Assembly: GCA_025353105.1 (NCBI GenBank)
Contig: JANXRG010000047.1
Location: 1 to 63,747, forward strand
DNA length: 63,747 nucleotides
From: Verrucomicrobiota bacterium
GTDB lineage: Bacteria; Verrucomicrobiota; Verrucomicrobiia; Chthoniobacterales; SZAS-18
Reading direction: 5' to 3'
Made by a program: the position numbers and the translations under genes. The notes below the pieces were generated by a model that was not told the origin of the DNA, ran no database searches, and was given only the letters and a program-made list of their open reading frames with translations. This document shows positions 10,591-46,720 of the stretch, piece by piece; positions within the stretch are counted from its first letter, which is position 1, and each line of letters begins with the position of its first letter.

Positions 10591-11331
10591 TCAGTTGGAG
10601 CCGTGGGCAATGGCCGCTTGTTCATCGGACCGGCGAACCGCTTCAATCAGCAGCACCTGCCAGTCTTGAAAAATAGTCTGGGGACTGTGGCCCACGGCGG
10701 TCAATTCCGCAAAGCTCCCCCCGCGCCAGCCCACGATTGTCTGAAAGGCCTCGACGCCCGCCTGGTCGGGGGCATGCGCGTGGGTGATCTGGCCGCTCTC
10801 AAAATGAATCGTTCCCTTTTCGCCGGACGGACTGGTGAACTCCACGACCGCGGTCACGCCGCTCAGGCACTTGATCTGGATGATGTCGGTGAGGTGCAAG
10901 TCCCGCAGCGTGCCAAAAAAGCTGTCCGAGGCGCCGGTCGTCGGTGAATCGAGGAGCGCCTTTACGAGTTCGACAAAGTGCGTGAAATCGAAGGGCTTCT
11001 TGAGAAAATGAATCACCCCAAGGCTTTCTGCCCGTTGCTGGTACGCGGGCAGGGGCATCGCGGTCATCATCAGCGCGCGGGCTTGCGGCGCGATCGTCCG
11101 CACGTCGCAAAGAAAATCGAGGCCGGTGCCATCGGGCAGATTGATGTCCAGGATGAAAAGGTCCATCTCGAATTCGCTGGCCAGGGCCTGGGCTTCCTCG
11201 ATCGTGCGGGCGGGCAGGAAACGATGATCCGGCAGCTCCTCTTGCAACAGGCTGACCAGCATGCGGGCCAGCGGCTCATTGTCGTCGAGGATCAGGATGT
11301 ACTTGGTGGCAGACGTCGGGGCAGCTTCCAT
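10591..11331 (-). CDS. Response regulator with DUF4388 domain
   Basis: A 246-residue protein. The N-terminal receiver domain (YILILDDNEPLARMLV, FILDINLPDGTGLDF, ALMMTAM, HFLKKPF) is complete for phosphorylation. The C-terminal half starts GTLRDLHLTDIIQIKCLSG and has GTIHFESGQITHAHA, the typical DUF4388 pattern linked to gliding and type IV pilus signalling in myxobacteria and cyanobacteria. The ATG at 11331 (MEAAPTSATKY) is preferred over an upstream start. First gene of a two-gene operon; the 835 bp upstream to 12166 may hold its promoter. Confidence 0.85.
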   Translation of the reverse strand: MEAAPTSATKYILILDDNEPLARMLVSLLQEELPDHRFLPARTIEEAQALASEFEMDLFILDINLPDGTGLDFLCDVRTIAPQARALMMTAMPLPAYQQRAESLGVIHFLKKPFDFTHFVELVKALLDSPTTGASDSFFGTLRDLHLTDIIQIKCLSGVTAVVEFTSPSGEKGTIHFESGQITHAHAPDQAGVEAFQTIVGWRGGSFAELTAVGHSPQTIFQDWQVLLIEAVRRSDEQAAIAHGSN

Positions 11332-12166
11332 GCGGTGTCGTACAGGATAAAGGACAGGCCGGGGCGGTTGGCGAGGCGAATGATGATCCATCCCTCACTG
11401 ATTGCAGAGCAATTTTCGGGCTTGGCGGGGGTGCGGTGACGCAATTCTTGCGACTGATTTGGAGGCGCGTCGCGGAACGAGGGCACGGCTGGTATCATCC
11501 GGGCCGAACGTGACCCACGGGAGGCCGGTGGGACGGCGGATTGCGGCGACTTTGAAATTCCGACGAGGGCGTCGGACCCATTCGGTTACAGGGGCTCCTT
11601 TCGCGGCAGCGTGATAGACTATTTTTGGTCTCGGGGAGCGCTCCACGAAGGTTTGAAATCGCCGCATTTTGTCCTGGCGTGGCGACCCCAAAGAGGCGCC
11701 CGCGCAAGACTTGGTGCGTCGCTGGGGCACAGCGGACCAATGCCGCAGTCGGTCGATGGGGTTAACACCCCATAGTGGCAAGACAGCGCGTCCGCTTAGT
11801 ATCCCGTAGGTGAAAAGTAGAAAGACGCCATGCGCAAGAGCAACGTGAAAACCAACCGAAGCGCCATTGGGGTGCCGACGATTGCCAGGACGAACCGCGT
11901 CGCGGGCGATTGTCTTCAACATGGAGAAATTCAATCGAGCCGCTGCCGTGCTAGCGAGCCCGCTCCGACCGTCCCATTATGAATTTCGCCGCCCAAATAG
12001 ACCAGAGTGGTCCGCATTCAGTCGTCCACCAACAGGCAAGGACTGGTCAGCTTTCGCCAACGGACGTGTAGCGCGGTTTGAAGGATCCGGGCAAGATGCA
12101 CACGGGTCACAACTGCCTCTCTTGGGCCGGTCATCCATTTCCCTCCATCCCCAGACTATCAAAATT
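11332..12166. other. Long intergenic region, no convincing gene
   Basis: The 835 bp between two divergent genes hold open frames on both strands, but none has a family-like sequence or a plausible start. A perfect 7-bp stem with a TAAC loop, ATGGGGT/ACCCCAT, lies at 11756-11773. An uncharacterised leader RNA or divergent promoters could lie here; I see no known riboswitch. Confidence 0.6.
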
Positions 12167-13576
12167 ATGTCGAAGAAAGATCTAAACCGTAGTCTTCGCC
12201 TCGCGCTGATTGCGGTCGCTTGTTCGCTCGCATTTTTTGGGAGCGGACTTTTCGCGCCACCCGCCGCCCAGGCGGTTCCGAGTTTTGCCCGGCAGACGGG
12301 CATGAATTGCATTGCGTGCCACACCGATTTCTTCCTGCTCAACGAGTATGGCCGCAATTTCAAACTCAGTGGCTACACCTTTGCCGCCGGCGGGAGCAAC
12401 CTGCCGCCCATTTCCTTCATGGTCCAACCATCCTTCACCCAGACGGGCAGGGGCATCGAGGGTGGAGCGGCTCCCCGTTTTGCGGCCAATTCCAATTTTG
12501 CCCTCACCCAGGCGAGTGCCTTCTATGCCGGAAGATTGTTTGGTCCGTATGCCGAGCCATTGTTCGGGGCGTCCGCGGCGGCGATCATGAACAAATTCGG
12601 AACGTTCATTCAGGTCACTTATGACGGCGTGGCCAATCGGTTCCATTGGGACAACGTCGAGTTTCGCTTTGCCGACACCGCGACGATGTTCGGGAAGCCC
12701 GTCACCTACGGATTCTACCTGAATAACAATCCCGGCATGTCGGACCTTTGGAACACCACGCCGGTCTGGGGATTTCCGTTTAGCAAATCCGGCCTCGCTC
12801 CGACCCCGGCAGCCGCCACGCTGGTCAATGGCGGACTGTCGCAGCAGGTGGGGGGAGTCGGTGGCTACATGATGATCGCGAACACGATTTACCTGGAATT
12901 GGCCGCCTACCACACGCTGAGCACGCCCTTCCAATACGCCATGGGAATTGATCCCACGGGCCAGACGCAGATCCCCGGGGCCGCCCCGTACTGGCGGCTG
13001 GCGTATACCAAGACCGTCGGAAACTCTTCTTACATGGTGGGTCTGTTCGGCCTCGCCGCCCACACCTACCCGGGCCGCGACAACTCGGCCGGCAGGGACA
13101 AGATCGTCGACTTCGGCTTCGACGCCCAATACCAGACGTCGATCGACAAGCACGATATCACCGTGCTGCTTTCCGGTATCTATGAGAAGCAAACCTGGAA
13201 TGCCAGCCAGCAGCTCGGACTGGCCTCCAACCCCTCGGATCGCCTTTATGAGGTGAAAGCCACCGTGGATTACCTTTACGATAAAACGTATGGCGGAGCG
13301 ATCAGCTATTTCGCGGTCAACGGCAGTCGCGATCCCTTGCTCTACTCGGGCAGCGCCAGCGGATTACCAACAAGCAACGGCCTGATTCTGCAGGCCAACT
13401 ACATTCCGTTTAACAAGAAGGGTGGCCCGGCCTTCTGGCCCAAGAGCAACTTGAAGTTGTCCGTGCAATACATCATCTACAACCGCTTCGACGGCGCCCA
13501 CACCAACTTCGATGGCGCCGGCCGGAACGCGCGGGACAACAACACGCTTTACCTCGAGGCCTGGTTTGCCTTTTAG
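12167..13576 (+). CDS. Cyc2-like monoheme porin-cytochrome
   Basis: A 469-residue protein with a signal peptide cleaved near AQA36, then PSFARQTGMNCIACHT. The CIACH motif (C48, C51, H52) binds one haem c close to the mature N-terminus, and YGRNFKLSGYTF follows it. The remaining ~400 residues are Gly/Tyr/Asn-rich with alternating hydrophobic strands and end in LYLEAWFAF, as expected for an outer-membrane beta-barrel. This fused layout and the flanking motifs match the Cyc2 family, which moves electrons across the outer membrane during Fe(II) oxidation (family knowledge). Homologues exist in organisms not known to oxidise iron, so the substrate is open. An azurin-like gene follows 99 bp downstream. 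Confidence 0.75.
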   Translation: MSKKDLNRSLRLALIAVACSLAFFGSGLFAPPAAQAVPSFARQTGMNCIACHTDFFLLNEYGRNFKLSGYTFAAGGSNLPPISFMVQPSFTQTGRGIEGGAAPRFAANSNFALTQASAFYAGRLFGPYAEPLFGASAAAIMNKFGTFIQVTYDGVANRFHWDNVEFRFADTATMFGKPVTYGFYLNNNPGMSDLWNTTPVWGFPFSKSGLAPTPAAATLVNGGLSQQVGGVGGYMMIANTIYLELAAYHTLSTPFQYAMGIDPTGQTQIPGAAPYWRLAYTKTVGNSSYMVGLFGLAAHTYPGRDNSAGRDKIVDFGFDAQYQTSIDKHDITVLLSGIYEKQTWNASQQLGLASNPSDRLYEVKATVDYLYDKTYGGAISYFAVNGSRDPLLYSGSASGLPTSNGLILQANYIPFNKKGGPAFWPKSNLKLSVQYIIYNRFDGAHTNFDGAGRNARDNNTLYLEAWFAF

Positions 13577-13675
13577 CGCCGAAGCCGTCGACCACCTAAT
13601 GTCGCGGCGCACGTCCAAATCCGCCGCCGCCAAACTCAAATCGCAAAACAAAAAAAACAACCTGAACGTATCTTC

Positions 13676-14131
13676 ATGAAAACAAAAACCTTTCTCCTTT
13701 CATCGCTCCTCTTGCTCGGCACCGCCCTCAATCTAAATGCCGCTGAGCCCGTCAAGCGGGTCACTATCAGCGGTTACGACACGATGAAATTCAGTGTCAC
13801 AACCATCGAAGTGAAACCAGGCCAACCGATCATCGTTGAGCTCAAAAACGAGGGCAGCATGCCCAAGGACGCAATGGGCCACAATTGGATCCTGCTCAAA
13901 GCTGGCGCCGACCCGCTCGCCTATGTGGCTGCTGCGGCGAACGCCAAGGCGGAGAACTATCAGCCTAAGGCGATGGCCAACCGGGTGATTGCCTCCATTG
14001 GGTTGCTTGGGCCGAAGGAGCATGGCGTGACGTCCTTCACCGCACCGAAGGAGCCTGGCACCTATCATTACGTTTGTTCCTTCCCAGCCCACACCCAGGC
14101 GGGCATGAGGGGAACTTTGGTCGTCAAGTAA
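13676..14131 (+). CDS. Azurin-like cupredoxin
   Basis: A 151-residue periplasmic blue-copper electron carrier. A signal peptide ends near NAAEP. The copper ligands are visible: His69 in MGHNW, then Cys134, His139 and Met144 in CSFPAHTQAGM. VTISGYDTMKFSV and PGTYHYVCSFPAH are typical of azurin. Placed 99 bp after the Cyc2-like gene on the same strand, it could accept electrons from that protein as rusticyanin is thought to do in acidophilic iron oxidisers (inference). The copper site is complete, so redox activity is likely; the partners are not proven. Confidence 0.9.
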   Translation: MKTKTFLLSSLLLLGTALNLNAAEPVKRVTISGYDTMKFSVTTIEVKPGQPIIVELKNEGSMPKDAMGHNWILLKAGADPLAYVAAAANAKAENYQPKAMANRVIASIGLLGPKEHGVTSFTAPKEPGTYHYVCSFPAHTQAGMRGTLVVK

Positions 14132-14345
14132 TTCGACCGCGGTCCGGTCGTTCCGGCAAGCAGGCGCGCACGATCGATTCGTCGTCGTGCGGCGCTTGGG
14201 TGTTCGGGATTGCGATGGCGTCTGAAGGGGCGCGCCGCCGCGCTGCCGGGCGCGCATGGGATCCGCAGATTTTTCGGGGCCAATGACGCACCCGGTTGCG
14301 GAAGCCGGCCGCCACTGGCATGATTTGCCGGTCCCAAGCGCCACC

Positions 14346-14433
14346 GGAGGGGTGGTAGAGCGGTCTATTGCACCGGTCTTGAAAACCGGAAACCCGAAAG
14401 GGTTCGTGGGTTCGAATCCCACCCCCTCCGCCA
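14346..14433 (+). tRNA. tRNA-Ser (anticodon TGA)
   Basis: Acceptor arms GGAGGGG (14346-14352) and CCCCTCC (14423-14429) pair. The anticodon stem CCGGT/ACCGG encloses loop CTTGAAA, giving anticodon TGA. A long variable arm (AACCCGAAAGGGTT) is typical of serine tRNAs, and the T loop is GTTCGAATC. The discriminator is G14430 and CCA is encoded at 14431-14433. No integrase lies nearby, so there is no sign that it serves as an attachment site. Confidence 0.95.
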
Positions 14434-44042: not shown

Positions 44043-46175
44043 TCAGTATCCCAACCGGGTACCGACCTGGTAAAACACCAGCGAAGCGACGTACGCAAAG
44101 CCTGTCATGTAGAAAAACAGGAACACGGGCCAGCGCCACGTGTTCGTTTCACGACGCACGACCGCGAGCGTCGCGATGCACTGCATCGAGAACACGAAAT
44201 AAATCATGATGGTCAGACAGACCAGCGGCGTGAAGACCGGGCGTCCATCGGGCCACTTGTCCGCGAGGAGGGCCTTGCGCACGGAGTCGGTGCCGGCCTC
44301 CGCCTTGTCGTCCGCCCCACCGACCGAATAGACGACGGCCACGGTGCTGACGAAGACCTCGCGCGCCGCCTGCGCGCCGATCAACCCGATGCCGATCTTC
44401 CAATTCAAGCCGAGCGGAACCAGCGCAGGCTCGATGAACTTGCCCATCCGCCCCGCGAAACTCTGCGCCAGGTGATCCTCGGGTTTGTCGGTCCCGGTCT
44501 TCGGATAGTACGCGAGCGCCCAGAGGAGAATGCTGAGTCCGAGGATGATCGTGCCGGCCCGGCGGATAAACGCTCTCGCCCGATCGAGCATCCCCTGCAT
44601 CACGGTGCGGACCGACGGCCGGCGGTAGGGCGGGAGCTCAAGCACGAGCGGGAGCGGCCGACCGCGCAGGATCGTGCGCTTGAACAACCAGGCAAACGCG
44701 AACGCGGTCAGCGTCCCGAGCGCGTACATCCCCATCAGCAGCCCGGCCTTCTGCCACGCCGGCACATCGTCCGTGGGAAAGAGCGTCGCTATCATTAGTC
44801 CGTAAACCGGCAGGCGAGCCGAACAGCTCATGAAGGGCGCCACCATGATCGTCGCGAGGCGATCCTTCGGGTTCTCGATCGTGCGCGTGGCCATGATACC
44901 GGGAATGGCGCAGGCGTAGGAACTGAGCAGCGGGATGAACGATTTTCCGTGCAACCCGACGCCGCTCATCACGCGGTCCATGATGAAAGCCGCGCGCGCC
45001 ATGTAGCCACTGTCTTCGAGCAGGCCGATGAACAGGAACAAAATCAAAATCTGCGGCAGGAACACGATGACGCCGCCCACCCCCTTGATCACGCCGTCAG
45101 TGATCAAGCTCTGCAGGTCGCCCGGCGGCATCGCCGTCTTCATCCATTCACCGGCCTGCCCGAAGAGCCATTTGATGCCATCCATCGGATAATTCGCGAG
45201 CGTGAAGATGCTCAAGAACATCAAGCCCATGATCGTCAGAAAAATGAGCCAGCCCCAGACGGGGTGAATGAGGACGGCGTCGGCGCGATCGGTGAAGCTC
45301 GTCTTCGCGTCGGCGGCGTCCGCGCCGCGGCGCAACACGCCCTCGCAAATCTCGCCGATGCGCGTGTAGCGGTCGCCGATGGTGTCCTCCTGCCACGTGG
45401 GCAGCTTTTCGAGCAGCGACGCCCGGGCGGTCCGGAACCGATGCAGCATATGCTCCCAGCCCAGGTCGACCACGAGCCGGTCGGCGCGCTCATCGCTCAG
45501 CAGCAAAATCAGAATCGCGCGAATCTGCGCGAAGCCCAGGTGATGATTCGGCGGCAGCTCGGTGCGGATCATTTCCAGCGATTGATCGACGAGCGGGGGC
45601 ACGGGCACCTTCCAGTCCGGGGACGAATCCGCCGGCCGGCTGAGCGCGATGCGTAACTCGGCGAGACCGGCGCGCGTTTTCGCGCTGCATGGAATCACCG
45701 GCACGCCGATCCGCCGCGAAAGCTCCGCCACGTCGATCGTGTCGCCGTTGTCCTGCGCGAGATCGATCATGTTGAGCGCGATGATTGTCGGCAGACCCAG
45801 CTCGATGACCTGGCTCGCGAGATAAAGGTTTCGCTCGAGGTTCGCGGCGTCGACCACGCATACCACCCGGTCCGGGCGCGGTGTGTCGGGCAGCACGCCG
45901 AGCAGCACATCGCGCGTCACCGCCTCATCCGGCGACTGCGGCGTGAGGCTGTAGGTGCCGGGTAGATCGATCATCCGCGCCTCGCGACCATGCTGCGTCA
46001 TAAAGACGCCGATCTTTTTCTCGACCGTGACGCCCGGGTAGTTCGCAATCTTTTGCCGCAGCCCCGTAAGCGCGTTAAAGAGCGTCGTTTTGCCGCTGTT
46101 CGGATTTCCGATCAACGCGACGGTCGCAAGCTCCGTTTCGATTCCGGGCGCGACATCAATCTGTTCGGTGGGCAT
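44043..46175 (-). CDS. feoB: Ferrous iron transporter FeoB
   Basis: A 710-residue inner-membrane Fe(II) transporter. The N-terminal G domain has VALIGNPNSGKTTLFNALTG (G1), IDLPGTYSLTP (G3) and ALNMIDLAQ (G4). The GDI-like spacer and a membrane domain with Gate motifs follow (SSYACAIPGIMATRTI; CSARLPVYGLMIATLF). All GTPase motifs are intact. It is the last gene of a feoA-feoA-feoB operon, 32 bp after the second feoA. Confidence 0.97.
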   Translation of the reverse strand: MPTEQIDVAPGIETELATVALIGNPNSGKTTLFNALTGLRQKIANYPGVTVEKKIGVFMTQHGREARMIDLPGTYSLTPQSPDEAVTRDVLLGVLPDTPRPDRVVCVVDAANLERNLYLASQVIELGLPTIIALNMIDLAQDNGDTIDVAELSRRIGVPVIPCSAKTRAGLAELRIALSRPADSSPDWKVPVPPLVDQSLEMIRTELPPNHHLGFAQIRAILILLLSDERADRLVVDLGWEHMLHRFRTARASLLEKLPTWQEDTIGDRYTRIGEICEGVLRRGADAADAKTSFTDRADAVLIHPVWGWLIFLTIMGLMFLSIFTLANYPMDGIKWLFGQAGEWMKTAMPPGDLQSLITDGVIKGVGGVIVFLPQILILFLFIGLLEDSGYMARAAFIMDRVMSGVGLHGKSFIPLLSSYACAIPGIMATRTIENPKDRLATIMVAPFMSCSARLPVYGLMIATLFPTDDVPAWQKAGLLMGMYALGTLTAFAFAWLFKRTILRGRPLPLVLELPPYRRPSVRTVMQGMLDRARAFIRRAGTIILGLSILLWALAYYPKTGTDKPEDHLAQSFAGRMGKFIEPALVPLGLNWKIGIGLIGAQAAREVFVSTVAVVYSVGGADDKAEAGTDSVRKALLADKWPDGRPVFTPLVCLTIMIYFVFSMQCIATLAVVRRETNTWRWPVFLFFYMTGFAYVASLVFYQVGTRLGY

Positions 46176-46207
46176 GGCGGAACGAAAATCAACCGGGGAC
46201 GCGGTGG

Positions 46208-46453
46208 CTACACGGGCCGGACTTCGATCTGTTCCGCGTCGAGTTTGCGCAGCGAGAGGCGATAGCCGCGCAGTTCGATTTCCAGCGGATCTCCGAGTGG
46301 CGCCCAGCGGAGGAATTTCACGAGCGTACCGTTGACCAGCCCCATTTCGCGAAGGCGCTTGAGGGGCTCGAGCTCCCCGTGGAAACCAACCACCACCGCC
46401 TGCGAACCGGGCTCAAGATCGGACAGACGGGGGGTCGGAGAATCGTTCGGCAT
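46208..46453 (-). CDS. feoA: FeoA-domain protein (copy 2)
   Basis: An 81-residue SH3-like protein of the FeoA family, which binds and modulates FeoB. LSDLEPGSQAVVVGFHGELE, KRLREMGLVNGT and LRGYRLSLRKLDAEQIEV match the family. It lies directly upstream of feoB and 9 bp after the first feoA. Two separate FeoA proteins may act together or with different partners. Confidence 0.9.
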   Translation of the reverse strand: MPNDSPTPRLSDLEPGSQAVVVGFHGELEPLKRLREMGLVNGTLVKFLRWAPLGDPLEIELRGYRLSLRKLDAEQIEVRPV

Positions 46454-46462
46454 GGAACGGAC

Positions 46463-46720
46463 TTACGAGCGGACCGGCTCGATGAGGATGTCTTTCGCGA
46501 GCTCCTTGCTGAGGGCGAGTCGCGTGCCGCACACCTGACAGACGAGCGCCGCGCCGTGCGAAAGTTTGACGATCTCCGCCGACTCGCAAAATCCCATCTC
46601 GCGAAGGCGCTGGCACTGGGCCGGTTTGGCTTCCAAGGCCAGCAGCCGAAGCCGCTTTCCGAGCGGCGCCGTGAGCAGCGACAGCGGGATCGATTTCGGG
46701 GCGTTTTTGACGAGGTGCAT
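46463..46720 (-). CDS. feoA: FeoA-domain protein (copy 1)
   Basis: An 85-residue FeoA homologue, the first gene of the feo operon. IPLSLLTAPLGKRLRLLALE, CQRLREMGFCESAEIVKL and GTRLALSKELAKDILIEP fit the SH3-like fold. It differs from copy 2 in having five Cys residues, including CQVCG, suggestive of metal or redox sensing (inference). Upstream, a perfect TTGCGAC/GTCGCAA repeat (46729-46735 and 46756-46762) may be an operator. Confidence 0.88.
   Translation of the reverse strand: MHLVKNAPKSIPLSLLTAPLGKRLRLLALEAKPAQCQRLREMGFCESAEIVKLSHGAALVCQVCGTRLALSKELAKDILIEPVRS

Follow-up and report, generated by a model that had tools for sequence, protein, structure and literature searches.

The window analysed here is an entire contig (C102) of 63,747 bases from a verrucomicrobial genome of 3.72 Mb in 121 contigs (97.6% complete), and it carries a two-gene unit on the forward strand. 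The first gene (12167-13576) encodes a Cyc2-like outer-membrane cytochrome-porin of 469 amino acids, P0001, characterized from its translation, an AlphaFold model, matches to porin folds, and an 84-sequence family alignment. It is followed head to tail, after 99 bases, by the gene (13676-14131) for a secreted azurin-like cupredoxin of 151 amino acids, P0002. Gene calls and translations agree with the first-pass annotation of this DNA on the positions of both genes. On the left, the unit is bounded by a response regulator gene with a DUF4388 domain on the reverse strand (10594-11391), which has 70-72% orthologues in two genomes (G005, G006), and on the right by a forward-strand gene for tRNA-Ser(TGA) (14346-14433). 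The possibility that the contig is a contaminant was rejected, as orthologues of the two flanking genes (70-78%) are found in the same genus, and the earlier assignment of the host to Verrucomicrobiota is supported. A scan for promoters and terminators gave no signal above shuffled sequences. Feo-type genes, recognized by eye, lie about 30 kb from the pair (44046-46720), as had been noted before.

P0001 consists of a signal-like segment (residues 1-36), a monohaem domain (37-71) with the haem motif C48-I-A-C51-H52, and a 16-strand barrel (82-468). The hydrophobic signal-like segment ends AQA/VPSF and is followed by the motif AVPSFARQTGMNCIACHTDFFLLNEYGRNFKLSGYT, and the whole protein contains exactly one CXXCH. 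Keffer et al. (2021, PMC8406198) set a length of at least 365 amino acids with a CXXCH for Cyc2 and described the motif AXPXFAR[Q/K][T/Y] upstream of the CXXCH as unique to it. In P0001, the single CIACH (residues 48-52) is preceded by AVPSFARQT (residues 36-44), a signature region that spans 12272-12322 on the forward strand, in agreement with the signal peptide, single CxxCH, and PSFARQT context first read from the sequence. The Cyc2 consensus also includes PXL after the CXXCH, which is common to other cytochromes and was no inclusion criterion for the published tree (PMC8406198). This site reads FLL in P0001 (12332-12340, forward strand), and the protein is called Cyc2-like for this reason. 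Its first position is proline in 79 of the 84 homologues and in 12 of the 13 verrucomicrobial rows of the alignment, and among these 13 rows the phenylalanine (P56F) is confined to the window protein. Ten residues, namely P38, Q43, C48, C51, H52, L58, G62, F65, K66, and Y70, are invariant in all 84 homologues, and the same alignment has no second conserved histidine. M85, kept in 76 of 84, is the only well conserved methionine or histidine outside the CXXCH and would for this reason be the leading candidate for distal ligand of the haem. Pfam and NCBIfam models gave no match to P0001.

The AlphaFold model of P0001, based on the 84-homologue alignment, has a mean pLDDT of 92.2 and a pTM of 0.85, with a short helical haem domain ahead of 16 long strands. 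Structural alignment with VIA-align matched it to the 16-strand porins OmpF, OmpC, and Omp-Pst2 (Z 21-22 over ∼300 aligned residues at ∼10% identity), Foldseek E-values against porins reached down to 6e-8, and the lists from both programs contained outer-membrane barrels only. The predicted structure bears out the C-terminal beta-barrel claimed from the sequence, for which structure prediction had been recommended, and has the fused porin of about 16 strands that Keffer et al. (2021) expect of Cyc2; for the Cyc2 of Mariprofundus ferrooxydans, 16 strands were likewise predicted (PMC8406198). An insert specific to the verrucomicrobial clade lies in the turn that joins barrel strands 2 and 3 (residues 127-142; 12545-12592, forward strand) and forms two short helices in the model (126-133 and 135-141). 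Its residues 129-142 are filled in 12-13 of the 13 verrucomicrobial rows of the alignment versus 0-1 of the 71 others. Standard porin topology would place the insert on the periplasmic side, where it may contribute to a docking face, but copies with cytochrome neighbours share the insert.

The second gene product had been described as a cupredoxin with all copper ligands, and this was confirmed: P0002 matches PF00127 (1.6e-12; 48.1 bits, gathering score 21.2) and keeps the His-Cys-His-Met site as H69, C134, H139, and M144. It is similar to azurins in the PDB (1.3e-15) and to auracyanin B (1.2e-14), and shares with both the cupredoxin family and the type of copper site. It differs from azurin in its score against the azurin equivalog TIGR02695 (68.5 bits, below the cut-off of 105.1), in a ligand loop, C-X4-H-X4-M, that is one residue longer, and in belonging to a clade of its own. 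The comparison with rusticyanin drawn by the first-pass annotation stands as far as a copper carrier is the likely periplasmic partner, but P0002 itself is azurin-like; identity with rusticyanin was rejected at 29.6 bits against a TIGR03095 cut-off of 146.7. The same genome has a second, unlinked azurin-like gene (L127; C61:41941-42381) with 41% identity, located behind a gene resembling nnrS by eye and a CRP/FNR-type gene, and this protein probably has a separate role.

Hundreds of genomes encode full-length homologues of P0001, with identities of 31-67%. A scan of 84,980 species genomes returned at least 594 pattern matches and at least 557 confirmed relatives, with Pseudomonadota making up most of the matches listed. 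Homologues with 31-42% identity are also encoded on plasmids of Caballeronia, Polymorphobacter, Acidiphilium, Methylocystis, Acidithiobacillus ferrooxidans, Paraburkholderia, and Ideonella; in these seven plasmid regions a c-type cytochrome gene adjoins the homologue or lies within ∼2.5 kb, and the Caballeronia copy is also near a HiPIP gene. In an IQ-TREE phylogeny of 91 homologues, the copies from Verrucomicrobiota fall into a single group (100/98), within which the window protein clusters with copies from Chthoniobacter and Chthoniobacterales (100/100). The nearest neighbour of this group is a gammaproteobacterial copy from Microbulbifer (100/100; Microbulbifer hainanensis, L025, 54% identity), which suggests transfer between phyla. 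A locus from another genome of the window's order (L119) and a Chthoniobacter MAG locus (L017) have the same azurin sequence, which makes Chthoniobacterales the most likely order of the host. A position among unrelated secreted cytochromes would have spoken against kinship with Cyc2; the protein instead falls within a large Cyc2-like family, in a tree that was built without Cyc2PV-1, the A. ferrooxidans Cyc2, and Cyt572 as anchors. By motif, length, and fold, P0001 is a Cyc2 homologue, and to this extent the earlier attribution of "features of Cyc2, the Fe(II) oxidase" is sound; for a family so widespread, the wording overstates the case.

The pairing with an azurin recurs across the phylum. 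A search with a profile made from four linked azurins placed an azurin-like gene next to the cytochrome-porin gene at 12 of 18 distinct verrucomicrobial loci (the window, L003, L005, L007, L008, L017, L018, L021, L022, L024, L118, and L122), with the porin-cytochrome first and the azurin second in all except L122, where the order is reversed. Four other loci (L019, L020, L023, and L027) have adjoining c-type cytochrome genes, and the remaining two (L121 and L123) have neither an azurin nor a c-type cytochrome gene within 1.5 kb of the cytochrome-porin. Of 388 sampled genomes of the phylum, 65 have azurin-like genes, most of them with no cytochrome-porin. The 12 linked azurins group as a single clade (100/99) that excludes every one of the 21 unlinked azurins compared, a set that includes second copies from G000, G128, G287, and G352. 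Pairwise distances between linked azurins correlate with those between their porin-cytochromes (r = 0.69), a value not equalled in any of 20,000 permutations, while other neighbours of the pair vary from genome to genome, so that only the pair is conserved. This pattern of linkage, clade, and distance looks like that of a dedicated partner inherited together with the cytochrome-porin, and it backs the original proposal of the cupredoxin as its likely partner. Adjacency by chance was rejected on these grounds, and the locus as a whole is not a chance arrangement because full-length homologues are present in hundreds of genomes and recur with a partner. One genome (G287; L008/L009) has a second porin-cytochrome copy broken by a stop near residue 349 beside an intact azurin neighbour. 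In a Pseudomonadota MAG (SZAS-85, L083), a distant Cyc2-like gene has an azurin of a different lineage directly downstream, an arrangement that suggests more than one origin for the pairing.

Within the family of the window's genome, the cytochrome-porin gene is present in that genome only, one of seven, and its genus-mates lack the gene; within the order, 8 of 213 genomes had matches, one of them weak. Two genomes of the same genus (L114 and L115) have what amounts to an empty site, with the response-regulator pair abutting tRNA-Ser(TGA) and no gene between them. In the window, the response regulator and the tRNA gene are 2.95 kb apart with the module between (occupied site 11392-14433), and the stretch between these boundaries has a G+C content of 57.9% compared with 62.2% for the window. 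The simplest reading would be a gain by transfer, with loss in the relatives as a possible alternative. No integrase gene was found between the boundaries, nor any repeat of the tRNA end, and integrase-mediated insertion at the tRNA with attachment repeats was rejected for this reason.

Elsewhere in the genome, contig C17 encodes an alternative complex III, comprising a pentahaem protein, an iron-sulphur protein of 1069 amino acids, NrfD, ActD, and a mono-haem protein, followed by a COX1/FixO set and then a COX2/COX1 set. The first-pass annotation had recommended a search for terminal oxidases, and these are two haem-copper oxidase gene sets. Genes for cytochrome c assembly are also present. 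Alternative complex III and such oxidases are ordinary in Verrucomicrobiota; they are compatible with electron intake and are no evidence for it. A search of the genome for RuBisCO found none, so electrons gained in this way would most likely supplement heterotrophy rather than support carbon fixation through RuBisCO.

Of the systems already described, the closest in architecture is Cyc2 of M. ferrooxydans PV-1 and its relatives in Clusters 1-3 (McAllister et al. 2020, PMC7029218), which, like P0001, combine a signal peptide, the AXPXFAR[Q/K][T/Y] motif, one CXXCH, and a 16-strand porin in more than 365 residues. P0001 differs in having FLL for PXL, an azurin as its neighbour, and a host that is not a known iron oxidizer. 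The rus operon of A. ferrooxidans encodes Cyc2, Cyc1, AcoP (Cup), an aa3 oxidase, and rusticyanin (PMC10654088), and resembles the window pair in placing an outer-membrane Cyc2 alongside a periplasmic copper-protein carrier. The window pair has one azurin-like protein, far from rusticyanin, and no linked cytochrome c4 or oxidase. Cyc2 homologues of the same phylum have been reported from Trout Bog MAGs (He et al. 2019, PMC6344600), and the parts of that report drawn on here make no mention of an azurin partner, a module, or a relation between copies. The papers naming both Cyc2 and azurin that a literature search returned all concern other subjects, judged by title and abstract. The conserved module of azurin and cytochrome-porin is new here.

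Taken together, we lean towards reading the pair as an electron-intake module that most likely takes electrons from Fe(II), with the azurin as carrier to the respiratory chain of a heterotroph. The pore of the 16-strand porin would admit a small donor in reduced form, most likely Fe(II) in solution, and this donor would reduce the haem of the N-terminal cytochrome domain, which is expected at the periplasmic mouth. The haem would pass the electron to the co-encoded, dedicated azurin-like protein, which would carry it across the periplasm and forward to a haem-copper oxidase, with a possible backward branch through alternative complex III to quinone. Azurins have potentials of about +0.3 V (300 mV). 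With the 208 mV of Cyc2PV-1 (PMC8406198), the order of carriers would be downhill at neutral pH if P0001 resembles these proteins. The extracellular electron uptake or donation suggested by the first-pass annotation holds up as a hypothesis of electron intake; that the donor is Fe(II) and the flow inward, we infer. Several findings count against Fe(II) intake, namely FLL at the PXL site, the genus-mates that do without the gene, and a family common in bacteria not known as iron oxidizers. So do the known Cyc2 partners, which are a cytochrome c (Cyc1) or rusticyanin/AcoP and not azurin, and the function of distant Cyc2 homologues, which Keffer et al. call uncertain, for Cluster 3 most of all (PMC8406198).

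Some of these findings would fit an inward conduit whose natural donor is another small reductant able to enter the pore, such as reduced humics or phenolics, Mn(II), or Cu(I), a reading that is unlikely yet deserves serious consideration. The family occurs in methanotrophs, nitrifiers, Caulobacterales, and Burkholderiales, which are not generally known for Fe(II) oxidation, the module contains no iron-specific gene, and Keffer et al. allow additional functions (PMC8406198). On the other hand, all three Cyc2 proteins assayed biochemically, one per cluster, oxidize Fe(II) (PMC8406198), and no enzyme for another donor is linked to the pair.

An outward conduit, in which the azurin would hand electrons to the cytochrome-porin for disposal on an acceptor outside the cell under oxygen shortage, is rather improbable. 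A single haem at the periplasmic mouth would be in a poor position to reach a solid acceptor, an azurin at about +0.3 V would be a poor donor to Fe(III) oxides, and the genome has oxidases. In favour of outward flow, FeGenie labels Cyc2 Cluster 3 as "probable iron oxidation and possible iron reduction", Geobacter and other iron reducers carry Cluster 3 proteins, and He et al. (2019, PMC6344600) raised respiration linked to extracellular electron transfer (EET) for bacteria from bogs that carry Cyc2 along with further EET genes.

It would be more surprising still if the cytochrome-porin took part in redox sensing or in handling copper or other metals, and if the azurin buffered copper instead of carrying electrons for respiration. 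Some cupredoxins do serve in copper handling, and P0002 has weak similarity to CopI (3.7e-5), but in four verrucomicrobial and seven plasmid regions the carrier next to the cytochrome-porin is a cytochrome c, once with a HiPIP, and not a copper protein, and no copper exporter lies beside the module. That the pair is a chance pairing or a recently acquired relic that no longer works is scarcely credible when both frames are intact, no haem or copper ligand is missing, and the structure is modelled with high confidence, even with P56F unique among verrucomicrobial rows, a patchy presence in the order, and the broken copy in G287.

Electron intake from Fe(II) is the reading preferred here, and the travelling module probably serves to take up electrons from dissolved iron or a comparable donor outside the cell. 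A more ambitious version, put forward tentatively, is that of a mobile, self-contained Fe(II)-oxidation module spreading among otherwise heterotrophic Verrucomicrobiota and fed into chains of alternative complex III and oxidases, with the clade-specific periplasmic insert in the docking face. If true, iron oxidation would bring Verrucomicrobiota, a phylum abundant in soil, into the iron cycle, and a heterotroph could hardly acquire this ability through a unit much smaller than two genes. The pair is small and expressible, and with its dedicated azurin as a ready acceptor it suits the question of what distant Cyc2 homologues do.

A different arrangement is seen in two of the loci with cytochrome neighbours, both from Opitutaceae (L019 and L020), where the gene just ahead of the Cyc2-like one encodes a protein with six CXXCH motifs and a membrane segment at its N-terminus. 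In L020, genes for a cytochrome c, a protein with four CXXCH motifs, and a 4Fe-4S protein of the Tat type come after the Cyc2-like gene, and such a cluster possibly encodes a whole route from the outer membrane to quinone.
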